From Heliocidaris erythrogramma (lineage: Eukaryota; Echinodermata; Echinoidea; Camarodonta; Echinometridae), in the NCBI GenBank assembly GCA_025617745.1, contig CM046854.1, positions 57,996,258 through 58,060,257 on the forward strand: a stretch of DNA of 64,000 nucleotides. The letters run 5' to 3'. The translations under genes were made by a program, and so were the position numbers. Positions 38,684-59,366 of this stretch are shown piece by piece (position 1 is the first letter of the stretch; each line of letters begins with the position of its first letter). Below the pieces are notes generated by a model. It had not been told where the DNA came from. It did not search any database and saw nothing but the letters and a program-made list of their open reading frames with translations.

Positions 38684-38754
38684 GTGCCCCAACCGGAAAT
38701 CGAACCCGGGCCACTGGCTTAACGTAATGCTCTACCACTGAGCTACCGAGACAC
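38684..38754 (-). tRNA. tRNA-like sequence 1 (probably pseudo or SINE-derived)
   Basis: 71 nt. The 7-bp acceptor stem GTGTCTC/GGGGCAC pairs; A box TAGCTCAGTGGTAGAGC and B box GGTTCGATTTCC are good. The anticodon arm is 3 nt shorter than in copy 2 and does not fold normally. No encoded CCA. Confidence 0.55.
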
Positions 38755-39002: not shown

Positions 39003-39076
39003 GCCCCCCGACCGGGAATCGAACCCGGGCCACTGGCTTAACGTACCAATGCTCTACCACTGAGGTACCGAGACAC
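39003..39076 (-). tRNA. tRNA-like sequence 2, anticodon GTT (Asn-like)
   Basis: A box with one change (TACCTCAGTGGTAGAGC) and perfect B box GGTTCGATTCC. Anticodon arm TTGGT/GCCAG with loop ACGTTAA gives anticodon GTT, but position 33 is C instead of the near-universal U. The acceptor stem pairs poorly. More likely a tRNA-derived repeat than a working gene. Confidence 0.5.
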
Positions 39077-52926: not shown

Positions 52927-53790
52927 ACTCAGCAGCCCAAGTCACCATTATTTCAGATCAAGTTCTTCATCTATTGGGCCCTGCACTGCCAAAGGTACGT
53001 GATGTAGTTCTCAGTGCCGCTGGCCGAGATATGAGAATGAGGAGGGTGGTAGTAGGCCCTGTAGAAATTAAACTTGGGGAAGGTGGTTTCTCTGAGAATA
53101 TCTACACTGCCCCAATAACAGATGACATGTTGTTTGGACTGGATTTACTTCATTGTGACTCCATGGATATCCTTCTCACCAGCATTCAGCTGAAGTTCGG
53201 CTCACAAACTTGGTGATGCCTCAGGCCCAAAACGAGTGGTGAAAGTCTGTGTGCAGCTGAGGACTACCATTCCGCCCAGTACTCTCAAGAGGATCACAGG
53301 AGTGATCGACCAGAGGATGAAAGTGTTTGTTTTCGAACCCTTACCGGAATTGCCTGCTTTAGTTCCTAGAACTCTTCACGAGGAAGGACCTGAAGTGCAA
53401 ATCTATGTACTCAACCCCACGGATAGGACTGTACATCTGGAGGGCCAAAGAGTCGTGGGCCAGGCGGATGAGATGGAGGAAGTAATACCTCCAGTCTTCA
53501 TTTCCAGACCAGGAGCCCACAGTACAGACTATCCAGGAGGATGAGGACACCAACTTGCCAGAACATCTTCAGGATCTGTACAATAGATTGTTGGATTCCA
53601 CTCAGCAGGCTGTACTTCAACACCTTCTAATAGAGTATGGGGATGTATTTGCCTGCAATAACTTTGACTTCGGAGATTTCACAGCAATTCAACATCGTCT
53701 TGACACTGGAACGGCAGCTCCTATTAAGCAGAAGATGAGGAGGACCCCTCTTCGGTTTGTAGACGAGCAAAAGGCCCATCTTCAGCGTAT
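52927..53790 (+). pseudogene. Gypsy-2 protease and linker
   Basis: The frame 52923-53216 continues aspartic protease after the active-site codons, which lie left of the non-LTR insertion (51591-51603). ITDDMLFGLDLLHCDSMDIL is the protease C-terminal segment. 53236-53544 (LEGQRVVGQADEMEE) and 53555-53794 (LIEYGDVFACNNFDFGDFTA, KQKMRRTPLRF) lead into RT. Stop codons separate the pieces. Confidence 0.75.
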
Positions 53791-53826
53791 GTAACAGGCA
53801 GGAGTTATTCAGCCTTCCCAGTTAGA

Positions 53827-54700
53827 GTGGGCATCTGCCCAGGTGTTAGGAAAAGAGATGGCGGGGTTCGCTGGTGTGTTGATTACCGCAGACTCAATGC
53901 AATCACAAGGAAGGATGTCTATCCTCTCCCTAATATTAAGGAGTGTTTGGACACTCTCTCAGGAACTCGATGGTTTTCCAAGTTGGATGCCAATTCTACA
54001 TATTGGCAAATCCGGATCGCCGAAGAAGACCGCAAGAAAACTGCTTTTACGACCAAGTATGGTTTGTATAAGTTTGCACAGATGGGCTTCGGGTTGTGCA
54101 ATGCTCCAGCGACTTTCTCCCGTGCCATGGACCTGATTCTTAGGGGGCTAAACTGGGACCTAGTGTTGGCCTTCCTTGATGATGTCGTGGTGTTGGGAAA
54201 GTCGTTTGAGGATCACATAAACAACCTACGTAGTGTCCTCCAATGCTTCAGGAGTTTGCAATTAAAACTCAAACCCGGAAAGGGTGAACTGTTTTGGCGT
54301 CAAGTTGAGTTTTGGCGTCAAGTTGAGTTTTGGGGCTGGAATGTAGGGGAAGATAGGATTTCCCTGAAGCCTGACCACATACAAGCAGTGCGGGATTGGC
54401 CAGTACCGAAGACGACCAAGCAAGTCAAGAAGTTCCTCGGTTTGGTAAATTACCACCGAGCGTTCGTCAATGACTATGCTGCGGTGGCTGTCCCGCTATA
54501 CCGAATCACAGGCAAGAATATGTTTCACTGGGGGCCCGAACAACAAGAAGTATTCCAACGCATCAAGGAATTGCTGACCTCGGCACCAGTGCTAACAATG
54601 CCAAATTCACATGACACCTTTATCTTGGACACGGATGCATCGAAAGAGGCTGTAGGGCCGAACTTCTCCAAGTCCAAGATGGGAAGGAAATTCATCGACC
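53827..54700 (+). pseudogene. Gypsy-2 reverse transcriptase and start of RNase H
   Basis: RT motifs: VRWCVDYRRLNAITRKDVYP, WFSKLDANSTYWQIRIAEED (catalytic Asp in KLDANS), MGFGLCNAPATFSRAMD and AFLDDVVVLG (FLDD instead of the common YxDD/FMDD). An 18-bp direct duplication repeats FWRQVE. The thumb is KKFLGLVNYHRAFVNDYAAV and RNase H begins TFILDTDASKEAVG before the element breaks off. Confidence 0.85.
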
Positions 54701-55593
54701 ATTCCAGAATGTATCCGGAATGGGGTCATCAAGCATTCCAGAATGGGTCGGGAATATCCCCATTCTAGTCGTGTTCTCAAATTTCCGGCCGATCGGCGCC
54801 TTTTGTTTGCCGAACAAAGGGGGCACTCTGAAAGCATTCTGTGACCATTCTGGAAATGTCCCTTTGTTGTCGACATGGCATGGGGTCAATCTGGAATGGT
54901 CCCAGAATGCGGTGATTAAAAATCATGAACGGGACAGCCAAGGATGCGCAGCGCGACTGAAGGTGCTTCATTTATTGCGATATCGATCATGCCGGCATGA
55001 TACATGTATAATCTCATTTCAAAGTATTTCCCTTTCTTTTACTGTAAGGATCGGAAGAATTATTTTTGAAGATTCATGTTGATGCCATATACTATAGTGA
55101 ATTCGCTTTATTTATGAATACTGTATAAAGCGACGGTCGCCAGATAAGATACAGCATCGTTAGATGTAAAAAAGAATACGATTTCCAGATTGAACGAAGT
55201 GATGATCGCCGGGTGAAAAAATGCGCATTATTTCTTCCGATATTAGGACGCAACAAATAGCTGATTTTTGTTTTTAATGACATGTATGGTTCGCAAGAAT
55301 TATGCGGAAGTTTAATGGTGAAAGAAATTGAAGCTCATCATATGAAATAAAGTAATGATCGTCAGATGAAATTAAATTACACTCGCTAGATGATACAGAT
55401 TTGGACGATTGCCCAAAGAAATAATATTATTAATAATACAATGTACTACAGTATAGACAGATGAAATAAATGACGGCCGATGTATATTTTTGTTGCCCTT
55501 AAATAAATTCACAGATGAGAATGATCAATACATGAAAAATGCACGATATGATTGATAATTAGATGATCTTTGAAGGTTTGCATGGTGGAGCTT
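54701..55593. other. Spacer with short palindromes, no gene
   Basis: ATTCCAGAATG words recur in both orientations (54700-54905), with TTTGTTTGCCGAACAAA in the middle, suggesting a small foldback. From 55220 on, a segment with CTTCCGATATTA, CGCAAGAATTATGCGGAAG and TTGTTGCCCTTAAATAA recurs on the other side of the Penelope-like element (58195-58300). Confidence 0.5.
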
Positions 55594-55691
55594 ATAACGT
55601 GGAGAAGGTTTACGGTTCACCATGTGTGTTGGTAGGAGGAAAGGGAAAAAGGAAGGAGGAAATTAGAAATGGATAGACGAGAAAGGATGAC
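55594..55691 (+). repeat. Inverted terminal repeat, left (Penelope-like)
   Basis: ATAACGTGGAGAAGGTTTAC ... GAAAGGATGAC; exact inverse of 58041-58138 by eye. Confidence 0.92.
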
Positions 55692-55933
55692 AAGAGAGAA
55701 AAGAAGAAATATTCTTCTTTTTTTTTTTTTCGTGACAATGGGTGAAGTCCTGAAAAGGACTGTAAACCAATGGGAGGGTTTACTGGTTCACCAGGTTTAT
55801 GGATAGGTGAAGGGTGATGGATGATCTGTAAACCAGATGAGATGAGATGAGAAGACTTGGCTGATGATCGATGGATGAGTAGCGATGGATTGAGTAGCGA
55901 AGGTTTGAGTAGATGAGGCTTGAGTAGGAGGTT

Positions 55934-55974
55934 ACTCGACGTTTCGGACAGGTTGACTGTCCGTCATCAGGAGT
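55934..55974 (-). ncRNA. Hammerhead ribozyme (type I, minimal)
   Basis: On the minus strand: ACUC, CUGAUGA, then GGACAG / CUGUCC hairpin (helix II, after a C), GAAAC, GUC, GAGU. Helix I is ACUC/GAGU, helix III is the very short AC/GU, and cleavage is expected after GUC. All invariant core bases are present. Such minimal hammerheads are known in Penelope-like elements, where they may act as dimers. Confidence 0.8.
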
Positions 55975-55982
55975 GAAGTGTG

Positions 55983-56756
55983 CTAGACGAGCGGCGAGGT
56001 TTTATGGTGTGTATGCGGACGTAGGAGGAATCGGCGGCCGGTAGTTTGGGCGGGGTTGCTGTCGGTGGTGGCGCTATTATGTCCGAGAGTTGAGTGGACG
56101 TGAGTGCGGATGTCGGAGGGATTGGTAGCGGGTGGCTGGCGGCGTGAAGTCCTTTGTGTGGTTGATGGTCGAGGGCGGAGATTGTACCGGGTTTGAGTAG
56201 GTGGGACGGCGAGCTGTGTTGTCAGGGGTGCATCGGCCTGAGGGTTGGGTGGTGTGATGGCGTTGGTAGTCGGCGGGTCGGCGTGCTGGATGGTCGGCTG
56301 GTCGGCGGGTTGAGTGGGCTGTGAGTCGGTGGGTTTGGTGGGCAGCGATTCAGTAGATTGAGTTGTCAGTGGTGCTGGTTGTGTGGATTGGGTTTGGTGC
56401 TGGTTGGTGCCCCTGTGAAGGATTGGGTGCCAGATGCGGTTGAGTTGAAGTCCTGTGTCCTGTGGTACTGTGTCGTGGCGTTGAATCTCGATGGCCTCCC
56501 TTACTCGTCTGGTGTGCCAGTGCTTGATGTTGGTGATTAGAGTGCTGTGTGACCAGTCGATGTGGTGATCCTCTTGTTGTGCGTGTTTGACTATTGCAGA
56601 TTTGTCCCAGTCGCTAAGTCGGTGGCAGGCCTTGTGTTCCTTGAGTCTTGTGTTGAAGTCTCCTGTCTCTCCGATGTAGACTTTACCGGAGTCGCAGGGA
56701 ATCGTGTATACGCCGAGTTGTGTGTTGGTAGGGGTCTTGTCCTTGTGTGAGTGCAA
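55983..56756 (-). pseudogene. Penelope-like GIY-YIG endonuclease domain
   Basis: 257-residue frame. GVYTIPCDSGKVYIGETGDF is the GIY-YIG core, followed by NTRLKEHKACHR, SAIVKHAQQEDHHIDW (conserved His) and RRVREAIEIQRH (catalytic Glu). The C-terminal third is Pro/Thr/Gln-rich with PTQPADQPTIQHADPP-type repeats. It is out of frame with the RT part, so broken. Confidence 0.9.
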
Positions 56757-56859
56757 GATGGAGTGAAGTTTCTTGGAGGATCGGTGTCGGACTTTGAAGT
56801 TGGCCCGAGTAAGTATGCGGTGTAGTTGGTGGGATGTCTTGCCGAGGTACGGGAGAACA

Positions 56860-58025
56860 ACTGTGGTGGGTTGCTTTCCGGAAGATTGGTCGTTGGTGGC
56901 GGCGTCTGTGGGTTGGTGATGAGATGGGTGGGTGGAGATCTTCTTCCTAGGGTATTGGTTGATGGAGGTGAGTGCATTGGTGATGTGAGTGAGTTCTTGG
57001 TGATGTGACTGAGTTGTTGATGAAGATGGTCCTTGTCACTGAGTTGGTAGGCGCGTCTGATGAGGGAGTTGGGTACCGACTGGTGGATGGATGGGTGGTG
57101 GAGGAGCGGTAGTTGAGGTATCTGTCCGTGTGGGTAGGTTTTCGGTAGATCTGGTGTGAGAGGAACCCTGAGTTGGTCTTCTTGACGAGAACGTCCAGGA
57201 AAGGGATTGAGTCGTTGAGTTGAGTGTCCATTGTGAACTTGGTATCTGGGTGTTGGCTGTTGAGGTGGTCGAGGAATCGGTGCAAGTCTGTTGTGCTGTG
57301 TAGCCAGATGACGAAAGTGTCGTCTACGTAGCGAAGCCAGAGTGAGGGTCGTTTGTCGGCGGTCTTCAGTGCTTGGTGTTCGAGGTGCTCCATGAAGATG
57401 TTGGCGATGATTGGTGAGAGAGGTGAACCCATGGCAGCCCCTTTGAGTTGTTTGTAGAAGTTGGTGCGCCACTTAAAGGAATTGGAGTTGAGGCAGGTGA
57501 GGAGAAGGTCGTGGATCTGGTCAGAAGTGAGGTTGGTGCGTGAGGCAAGGTATGAGTCAGTGAGGAGTCGGTGCAGGTTTCGGTGACTGGTACGCTGGTG
57601 AAGAGTGAGACGACGTCGAAGCTAACGAGTGTGTCAGTGGGTTGAAGCTTGGTCTTGGAGATGATATCGACGAAATGCTGTGAGTTGGTGACGTGATGGT
57701 CGGTGAGGCCTACTAGTGGTTGAAGTATGGTGGCTAGGTGTCGTGCTGTGTTGTAGCTGGGAGATCCGCGGGTGGAAATGATGGGTCGGAGAGGCGTGTC
57801 GGGTTTGTGAATCTTGGGTTGGCCGAAGAGGATGGGGCAGGTGCCTGAAGAAGATCGGAGCTGAAAGTAGAGTGGTTTGGGTATGATGTCGTTGCGGTGG
57901 AGAGCGAGTAGCTTCTGGTTGATCTTCCTTTCCGTGGCTTGGGTCGGGTCATGCTTGAGTTCTTGGTAGGTGTCCTTGTCCTTGAGTAGGTCGTTGATCT
58001 TGTGGTTGTAGTCCTGTTGGTCCAT
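56860..58025 (-). pseudogene. Penelope-like reverse transcriptase
   Basis: The frame 57366-58025 gives FGQPKIHKPDTPLRPIISTR and LVSFDVVSLFTSVPV (motif A Asp). After a frameshift near 57570, the frame 56947-57432 gives MGSPLSPIIANIFMEHLE and LRYVDDTFVIW (YVDD), then IPFLDVLVKKTN and IYRKPTHTDRYLNY. A second frameshift near 57090 leads to VPNSLIRRAYQLSDKDHL. All catalytic Asp are kept. Confidence 0.9.
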
Positions 58026-58040
58026 GACGACTGTTGCGTT

Positions 58041-58138
58041 GTCATCCTTTCTCGTCTATCCATTTCTAATTTCCTCCTTCCTTTTTCCCTTTCCTCCTAC
58101 CAACACACATGGTGAACCGTAAACCTTCTCCACGTTAT
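58041..58138 (-). repeat. Inverted terminal repeat, right (Penelope-like)
   Basis: Inverse of 55594-55691. Penelope-like elements are known with direct or inverted terminal repeats. Confidence 0.92.
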
Positions 58139-59016
58139 GATTGACAATATTAACAAATGATAATCAGTTTTGCACACCAAATGCGCTTTATATTTCTTCC
58201 GATATTAAGACGGCAATGATTTTTTAAGGAACTGTATGGATCGCAAGAATTATTGCGGAAGTTTAACGTATGTATATGTTTTGTTGCCCTTAAATAACTT
58301 CAATGATGAGAATCATTTTTTATACTTTAATTATGGTGACAACCCGTCTATTTATAATAAAACAATGAAAGCGAAGGACGCCAGAATAGAGCGGCGATCG
58401 CGAGGTGAAAGAGGAGATCACCAGATAAAATAACGAAAAAAGTGAAAAGGATAAAAGTAACCAACAGGATTTATTCCTTTACCATTCACCATGGTCACGA
58501 TATTCATTTCTTTTTGCCAAGATATTTTTCGTCGTATAGGCCTATGATATATGCAACTGGTTTTTCTGAAGGTTCATATTTTGAAAAAAAAAAGGTGGTT
58601 CATAGTCCGAAATATGAAATAGAGTTAATTCTTCCGAAGGTTCATACTTTTTCTGAATCTTTTATATTTTTAGCACACCGCTTGAGCGGTATAATTAGGA
58701 TTGAGACAGGAGGGGAAAAAACAGAGCGTATAAGATAAGAGGGCAAACACTGTGAGAGCGGAATAGAAACGGGGAGAGGAGAGAAATAAAATGGAATCGT
58801 GTCAACGTGACAGATAGAAAGAGAAGTAAATGACAAATTAAAGAGAAACATCGGAAAAAGGTGAATGAAAAGCTGATAGAATAAAAACAGCCATAAGAAA
58901 AGGGTGATTATTCTTGATAAAAACAAAGAATAACACAAGGAAACACGATAGAGTTTTTAGCACCCTTAAAATTGCAAGAGGCATCGGCTATCGACAAATC
59001 CCAAAAAGTAAATGAA
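58139..59016. other. AT-rich spacer, no gene
   Basis: 58195-58300 repeats part of 55225-55500 (see spacer at 54701). The rest is unrecognised. Confidence 0.5.
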
Positions 59017-59215
59017 TTTGTAAAATCAGCACTGATTTTCTTATTTACTATATAAATCTATATACCTACCTATTATGCCAGTAGTCTTGACTACGGGACC
59101 CCTTCGAGAATTTATCACACATGAGTCACAATATTGTGCGCACCCCCCGTAATCCTATTGTCCCCTTCGCCACTCACGCGCGTCAACACGCTACGGCCAT
59201 CTTCCTCTTTTGCGA
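59017..59215 (+). repeat. DIRS left inverted terminal repeat (copy H)
   Basis: Inverse of about 63040-63220 over the shared part (GACTACGGGACCCCTTCGAG ... CGCGTCAACACGCTACG); the outermost bases differ between ends, as usual in DIRS. Confidence 0.88.
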
Positions 59216-59270
59216 GCAACCCCAAGTAGAAACATGTTGCTTGCAAGGTGCGGGGAAGGAGGGAGGGTCA

Positions 59271-59366
59271 TAGGTAGGTATATAGATTTATATAGTAAAT
59301 AAGAAAATCAGTGCTGATTTTACAAATTTACTGCAATAAATCATATATACCTACCTATTATGCCAG
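59271..59366. repeat. DIRS internal complementary region (copy H)
   Basis: TAGGTAGGTATATAGATTTA ... GTGCTGATTTTACA is the complement of the left end. It runs directly into TTTACTGCAATAAATCATAT ... TATTATGCCAG, the complement of the right end. Confidence 0.93.

Follow-up and report, generated by a model that had tools for sequence, protein, structure and literature searches.

The minimal hammerhead ribozymes of Penelope-like elements (PLEs) are said to have been reported originally by Cervera and de la Pena (2014) and by Lunse et al. (2017). As summarized in the available portions of several reviews, they are variants of the type I hammerhead (PMC6155905, PMC7761336, PMC6466107) in which helix III can be shared between the two halves of a dimer (PMC6466107, PMC7761336). 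According to the accessible part of a report on the Anolis Poseidon element PAc, which is of the same element class, the motif cleaves only when protein is added, cleavage mutants still insert, the ribozyme is dispensable for insertion in vitro, uncut RNA is the main insertion substrate in vitro, and no RNA reads start or end at the cut (PMC11167929). Retrozyme hammerheads likewise reside in a retroelement with tandem copies but, as far as the accessible texts describe them, retrozymes differ from the element presented here in carrying mostly canonical motifs, in being non-autonomous, and in forming small circular RNAs (PMC4918200, PMC7229834).

The motif analyzed here lies in a PLE of the sea urchin Heliocidaris erythrogramma, within a stretch of 64,000 nucleotides that was analyzed as a whole and is called the window. 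It resembles the minimal PLE hammerheads, as these appear in the available review text, in its pseudo-LTR location, in having helices I and II without a proper helix III, in the palindrome at the helix III position, in its tandem arrangement (a pair in the locus L009), and in its many genomic copies. A possible difference from the class as reviewed is the unpaired nucleotide before helix II in every examined copy that forms this helix, and a further difference is that many urchin copies begin at the 5′ edge of the motif. Apart from its constant extra nucleotide, the motif is an unexceptional representative of this known class. Its assignment to the minimal type I hammerheads of PLEs, made in a first-pass annotation of the window, is supported by position, core, covarying helices, and genome-wide association with the element, and by the available portions of the class reviews. 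The genomic evidence described below bears on how the ribozyme is used.

The motif and its Penelope-like host element

Read on the minus strand from 55974 down to 55934, the motif has the letters ACTC CTGATGA C GGACAG TCAAC CTGTCC GAAA CGTC GAGT (Table 1), which include the invariant core of a type I hammerhead (CUGAUGA, GAAA, and the cleavage triplet GUC). The core (CTGATGA...GAAACGTC), helix I, and the 6-bp helix II are where the first-pass annotation had drawn them. It had also placed the motif outside the inverted repeats, in agreement with the positions of the two perfect 100-nt arms, and just after the stop codon of the GIY-YIG frame; the motif indeed begins 8 nt past that TAG. By comparison, the PAc motif overlaps the start of an ORF, and in L009, again unlike PAc as described in the accessible text, the motif lies ~275 nt before the next start codon (PMC11167929).

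Table 1. Coordinates of the motif and of its host element in the window
Feature	Position	Strand	Evidence or remark
Minimal hammerhead motif, whole	55934-55974	minus	pattern search, fold comparison, own covariance model
Helix I	ACTC 55971-55974 / GAGT 55934-55937	minus	
Core strand CTGATGA	55964-55970	minus	
Extra unpaired C between A9 and helix II	55963	minus	
Helix II (6 bp)	GGACAG 55957-55962 / CTGTCC 55946-55951; loop 55952-55956	minus	
GAAA; CGTC	55942-55945; 55938-55941	minus	
Predicted cut site	between 55938 and 55937	minus	
Frame with GIY-YIG domain; stop TAG 55983-55985	55983-57035	minus	PF01541, 22.1 bits versus cut-off 22.6
Reverse transcriptase frame, same element	56947-57621	minus	PF00078 (RVT_1), E 4e-09
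Upstream part of RT region	57366-58055	minus	without a Pfam match of its own
Terminal 100 nt at the short 3′ end	55594-55693	minus	
Optional 3′ tail	55560-55593	minus	outer limit approximate
Inverted perfect copy of 55594-55693	58039-58138	plus	
Histone-type hairpin AGTCCTTTTCAGGACT	55746-55761	minus	followed by TCACCCA (to 55739)

The host element has the features of the Penelope/Poseidon type, namely a reverse transcriptase with a C-terminal GIY-YIG domain, direct or inverted pseudo-LTRs, and an optional tail of 30-40 nt. In the window copy the coding region is divided among several frames, and the element is 5′-truncated near 58041, where homology to L009 starts; the window holds one motif because of this truncation. 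The earlier statement that only one copy is present therefore applies to the 64,000-nt window but not to the element. L009, a tandem in the same genome (C1:47664000-47672000), carries a pair of directly oriented motifs spaced 3,140 nt apart and thereby provides the additional repeat-borne copy that the annotation had proposed to look for among other genomic copies. The coding part of L009 lies between its two motifs and comprises a stop-to-stop frame of 837 residues; its N-terminal part is encoded in a different frame. The 837 residues show 74% identity to Strongylocentrotus proteins and 75% to Lytechinus proteins (among the best 120 of 3,510 matches).

Copies of the element end in two 3′ zones, at +373 to +378 and at +402 to +417 from the motif start, which resemble the optional tail of ~30-40 nt described in the available text on Penelope/Poseidon elements (PMC11167929, PMC3846280). 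Position 55594 corresponds to the shorter of these two ends. In the window copy the optional tail includes the opening codons of the coding frame (ATGCAAACC...), which are likewise found after the first L009 motif. Head-to-head pairs with their 3′ ends outward are frequent among the fetched loci (L010-L015 and others). Inverted pseudo-LTRs have already been described (PMC3846280), and in the accessible part of the report on PAc, an element that shares with the urchin element both the optional tail and the use of both target strands, the lizard protein is stated to extend each of the two target strands (PMC11167929); we infer that the head-to-head pairs arise by priming on both strands. The inverted arm at 58039-58138 is a very short second copy of this kind, head-to-head and without the motif, joined to the main copy at the truncation point. 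A candidate target duplication of 10 nt with one mismatch (55550-55559 / 58139-58148) lies in flanks that share more similarity.

Several further observations concern the surroundings and arrangement of these copies. The flanks of the window copy (55000-55560 and 58130-58400) share short direct similarities beyond the candidate duplication, which suggests insertion into a pre-existing repeat. Beside the Penelope copy, positions 53728-54768 on the plus strand hold what is left of a different retroelement, with matches to RVT_1 and RT_RNaseH_2. At L015 (2100-2330), a head-to-head junction contains several tandem repeats of the motif edge ATCAGGAGTC, as if the polymerase had jumped repeatedly at the template 5′ end. 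On contig C4 (G000 C4:56653960-56668184), a dense array of matches to the subfamily A2 anchor described below, with at least 8 head-to-head pairs, 40-nt gaps, and a spacing of 0.75-3 kb, looks like a satellite derived from the PLE.

Helices, the extra nucleotide, and a competing fold

The core search pattern, CTGATGAN{8,30}GAAACGTC, matches the window once and none of 100 shuffles of it. Across the genome searched (1.06 Gb in 26 contigs) it gives 769 matches (401 + 368) versus 15 for the reversed control. The fetched loci contain 121 motif copies, 54 of them distinct, with some counted twice owing to a few overlapping loci. Among subfamilies the helices vary, for example from GGACAG/CTGTCC with ACTC/GAGT to GATCAG/CTGATC with TTCTC/GAGAA, and further helix II variants are GACCAG/CTGGTC, GGAT/ATCC, and GCGTCC/GGACGT. 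The core letters stay constant throughout, which is not independent evidence because they were part of the search pattern.

Covariation of helices I and II was assessed on 12 rows of our own choosing, among which the alignment misplaces helix II of the sole subfamily E row, a flaw that counts against the structure. Paired cells amount to 88.3% versus 69.5% in shuffled rows, the covariation score is 0.542 versus 0.195 (a value reached by 0 of 500 shuffles), and 21 cells are changed on both sides versus 7.4 after shuffling. The number of pairs changed on both sides, 6, is unremarkable in these rows, as 72 of 500 shuffles reach it. When the partner is shifted by 1-3 columns, pairing falls to 23-38%. 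Comparison of variants thus supports the predicted fold of helices I and II. That the motif resembles a hammerhead by chance is exceedingly improbable given this covariation, the 769 versus 15 matches, and the 0 of 100 window shuffles; nothing speaks for it besides the absence of a match in Rfam.

The covariance check that the first-pass annotation had proposed gave a divided outcome. Rfam returned no hammerhead family for the window motif at E values up to 10, and none for other copies of the motif. The lack of a significant covariance score, which the annotation had listed among the grounds for refutation, thus applies to Rfam, and this silence counts against the reading that we prefer. A covariance model trained on variants from this genome detects the motif readily, at a single place in the window (55930-55978, 63.6 bits; next match 12.7), with the window copy among its 12 training rows. 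The silence consequently concerns the Rfam models and is neither proof nor disproof. A search of the viral contigs collection returned no relatives; one of other genome contigs returned two loci, and the surroundings of the Penelope frame in L141 showed no hammerhead.

Helix II with at least 4 contiguous pairs forms in 105 of the 121 copies, and in all 105 a single nucleotide (C in 99 copies, T in 3, and A in 3) remains unpaired between A9 and this helix, although the search pattern did not require it. No copy pairs without the extra nucleotide, and 16 pair in neither register. Helix II is thus not stacked directly on A9/G12 as in a type I hammerhead, and the helix pairing GGACAG/CUGUCC noted in the first-pass annotation holds with the addition of an unpaired C that had gone unmentioned. 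The plus-strand hammerhead of chrysanthemum chlorotic mottle viroid has a proper helix III. Like the urchin motif, it has a nucleotide inserted between A9 and helix II, an A where the urchin mostly has C; in the viroid, according to the accessible text, A slows cleavage moderately, U speeds it up, and C or G impairs it strongly (PMC3705267). The detrimental effect of C in the viroid counts against our preferred reading. No remark on such a constant extra nucleotide was found in the available portions of the class reviews. Its constancy makes for a definite mutational test of the cutting ability of this variant.

In GAAACGUC, no loop nucleotide separates GAAAC from GUC, so helix III (AC/GU) cannot close within one RNA, and a monomer has no closed helix III. 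Of the three helices originally drawn, covariation supports I and II, and the description of the ribozyme as complete is not supported, with an extra nucleotide flanking the core and a monomer that cannot form helix III. The ACGU at this position is self-complementary, however, and two motifs can therefore form a 4-bp helix III between them, as described for dimers of the minimal class.

Energy calculations do not yield a hammerhead as the minimum-energy fold of 41-, 51-, or 101-nt stretches because GAUG pairs with CGUC. The resulting rod, in which core bases are paired, is predicted at -16.9 kcal/mol versus -11.4 for helices I and II alone, and this predicted preference likewise counts against our preferred reading. 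For two strands, an idealized double hammerhead is calculated at -23.9 kcal/mol versus -33.8 for two rods, and the best two-strand fold (-36.6) is predicted to be a plain duplex of the rod. Nearest-neighbor energies leave out non-canonical core pairs, and the unfavored ideal dimer does not decide the matter of dimer cleavage. The alternative that the sequence is a rod hairpin with no working ribozyme, acting at the RNA 5′ end as a signal for a protein or a polymerase, seems quite unlikely. The GAUG/CGUC pairing recurs in the minimum-energy folds of 7 of 7 subfamily sequences (one of which, B_L079like, carried the downstream flank of its sisters in place of its own), and in the rod G12 is the partner of the extra C. 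Being invariant, however, the rod pairs supply no covariation evidence for it; subfamilies D and E have A as the extra nucleotide, which would be unable to pair with G12; and the letters kept are those that a hammerhead needs, including an AAA that is unpaired in the rod, although the search pattern demanded these letters.

Where integrated copies begin

The 5′ ends of integrated copies offer a cheap readout, from the genome alone, of whether the copied RNA had been cut. Copies were collected with anchors that lie 3′ of the predicted cut, so that a site could be found without the motif, and positions were counted upstream from the cut. The anchor for subfamily A, a 24-mer at +22, has 469 genome matches, of which the first 100 listed were examined; that for subfamily A2 has 515, of which the analysis covered the full set of 31 on contig C1. 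The scissile bond is read across at 83 of the 100 subfamily A sites and at 23 of the 31 A2 sites. Of the 100 subfamily A sites, 42 continue upstream into the coding region for 58 nt or more, and 36 of these 42 reach 95 nt or more.

Twelve subfamily A sites, all of which contain the motif, were excluded as ends: the element resumes after an indel (L149, L054, L059, and L119), an indel lies in or beside the motif (L056 and L154), the copy is joined to another part of the element (L139), or an inserted AC-tailed repeat takes the place of an end (L041 and L042, and on account of the same flank also L118, L130, and L156). Three A2 sites (L045-, L173, and L179) were excluded as well. A few rows are duplicates of the same event (L020/L021, L025/L032, L062/L063, L043/L044, L017/L166, and L145/L146), and a distant indel or insertion could mimic an end because many sites have a flank of only ~50-150 nt.

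The 46 usable subfamily A ends fall within -22 to +51. At the motif 5′ edge, which is that of helix I (+32 to +39), lie 17 of them, with 7 at +47 to +51, 5 inside the motif (+4 to +31), 15 at -9 to +3, and 2 further down. Exactly at the cut lie 4 of those 15, for which the chance is 0.0008 under a uniform model over -22 to +31 with all ends counted (taking one end per locus retains the end closest to the cut and is therefore biased), and an overlapping sample adds three ends at the cut (L089+, L125, and L126), with L089 ambiguous by 3 nt. Subfamily A2 provides 28 usable ends, 18 of which lie at +32 to +39 and 1 at the cut; the remainder comprises 5 others in -9 to +3, 2 at -11, and 2 inside the motif. 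Because the motif 5′ edge is the commonest 5′ end, the starts of integrated copies indicate that the RNA most likely begins at helix I. Likewise, since most sites read across the cut, most of the copies examined would have been made from RNA that was uncut there, in agreement with the in vitro work on the lizard element as far as the accessible text presents it (PMC11167929).

We do not claim a clean cleavage footprint, as only 1 of the 28 A2 ends is at the cut and there is no sharp peak. The shoulder of subfamily A ends 3′ of the motif could reflect cleaved templates or a polymerase that halts at the folded motif. These ends near the cut hint at some cleaved templates and to that extent count against a predominantly uncut template. 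A further alternative is that cutting is routine in the animal, with dimers formed in tandem transcripts releasing unit-length, GAGU-starting RNAs that serve as templates. For this speak the 15 of 46 subfamily A ends at -9 to +3, with 4 exactly at the cut, and the head-to-head copies L089, L096/L164, and L128/L165, both ends of which lie at the cut or no more than 3 nt from it; judging by its title, Lunse 2017 also describes dimer cleavage for this class. We nevertheless regard routine cutting as rather unlikely, given the 83 of 100 and 23 of 31 sites that read across the cut, the A2 ends with 1 of 28 at the cut, the ambiguity of the L089 end, and the fact that ends at -3 to -6 equally fit a polymerase stop at the base of the fold. 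The scarcity of ends within the motif (5 of 46 in subfamily A, 2 of 28 in A2) looks as if the polymerase passes or stops at a folded block, which speaks for the rod hairpin.

The probable explanation, judged from the genomic sequences, is that the motif is a minimal PLE hammerhead that forms the 5′ edge of the pseudo-LTR, that the copies examined derive mostly from uncut RNA, and that cleavage is slow, conditional, or used at another step, as the predominance of uncut templates would imply. A tandem element carries the motif both ahead of its coding unit and directly past the stop codon. Cleavage after GUC, if any, would need a partner, which might be the second motif in the same tandem transcript, paired through the self-complementary ACGU, or the element's own protein, as the accessible text reports for the Anolis element (PMC11167929); the ribozyme would not be the routine maker of the template 5′ end. 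Capped RNA ends at ACTCCTGATGA would support the 5′-terminal placing of the motif, and a 5′-hydroxyl at GAGT would support cutting.

Candidate RNA-end signals and neighboring repeats

The motif edge TCACTCC is initiator-like, and a TATA-like CATAAAA is seen by eye ~30 nt upstream. The available text on a rotifer Penelope pseudo-LTR describes a TATA, 20 bp, and then TCACT (PMC3846280), a resemblance that weakly suggests a promoter at the motif edge.

Downstream of the motif, in loci L009-L088 and the window, we observed a hairpin of the histone type. Downstream sequence of 330 nt was available for 69 motif copies (from L009-L068 and the window). A hairpin of the type AGTCCTTTTCAGGACT is present in 61 of them, 50 of which also have GAAAGA 12-15 nt beyond it; this purine element is degraded in the window copy. 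The hairpin arms covary among subfamilies (AGTCCT/AGGACT, AGCCCT/AGGGCT, and AGTTCT/AGAACT), and the Rfam histone 3′ stem-loop model gives 14-25 bits on the element hairpins, under its cut-off of 34. Replication-dependent histone mRNAs use the SLBP/U7 3′-end machinery, and sea urchin histone genes carry CAAGAAAGA. In the available descriptions of histone pre-mRNAs, the stem-loop is followed by a U7-binding downstream element, and the mRNA ends a few nucleotides past the hairpin (PMC7026596, PMC1924863). Among the papers listed in literature searches, none links the histone stem-loop to Penelope or other transposable elements. As a tentative and on balance unlikely possibility, one pseudo-LTR might set both RNA ends, the 5′ end at a usually uncut hammerhead and the 3′ end by means of the hairpin and the purine element, through borrowed SLBP/U7 histone machinery.

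Some repeats adjoin the motif or lie elsewhere in the window. A SINE-like repeat with an AC microsatellite tail is inserted 11-17 nt before the motif in L041, L042, and L048 and is recognized by its flank in L118, L124, L130, L132, L133, and L156, with a similar flank in L079. Its head, GCTGGGCGTTGTGGCGTGCGCCTGTAATCCAGCTACC, presumably resembles 7SL/Alu, as judged by eye. The window also contains a perfect 59-nt inverted repeat (59015-59073 / 59270-59328) with 196 nt between its arms, and two tRNA matches on the minus strand (38685-38752 and 39004-39074), ~250 nt apart and in the same orientation, which are perhaps tRNA-derived repeats.
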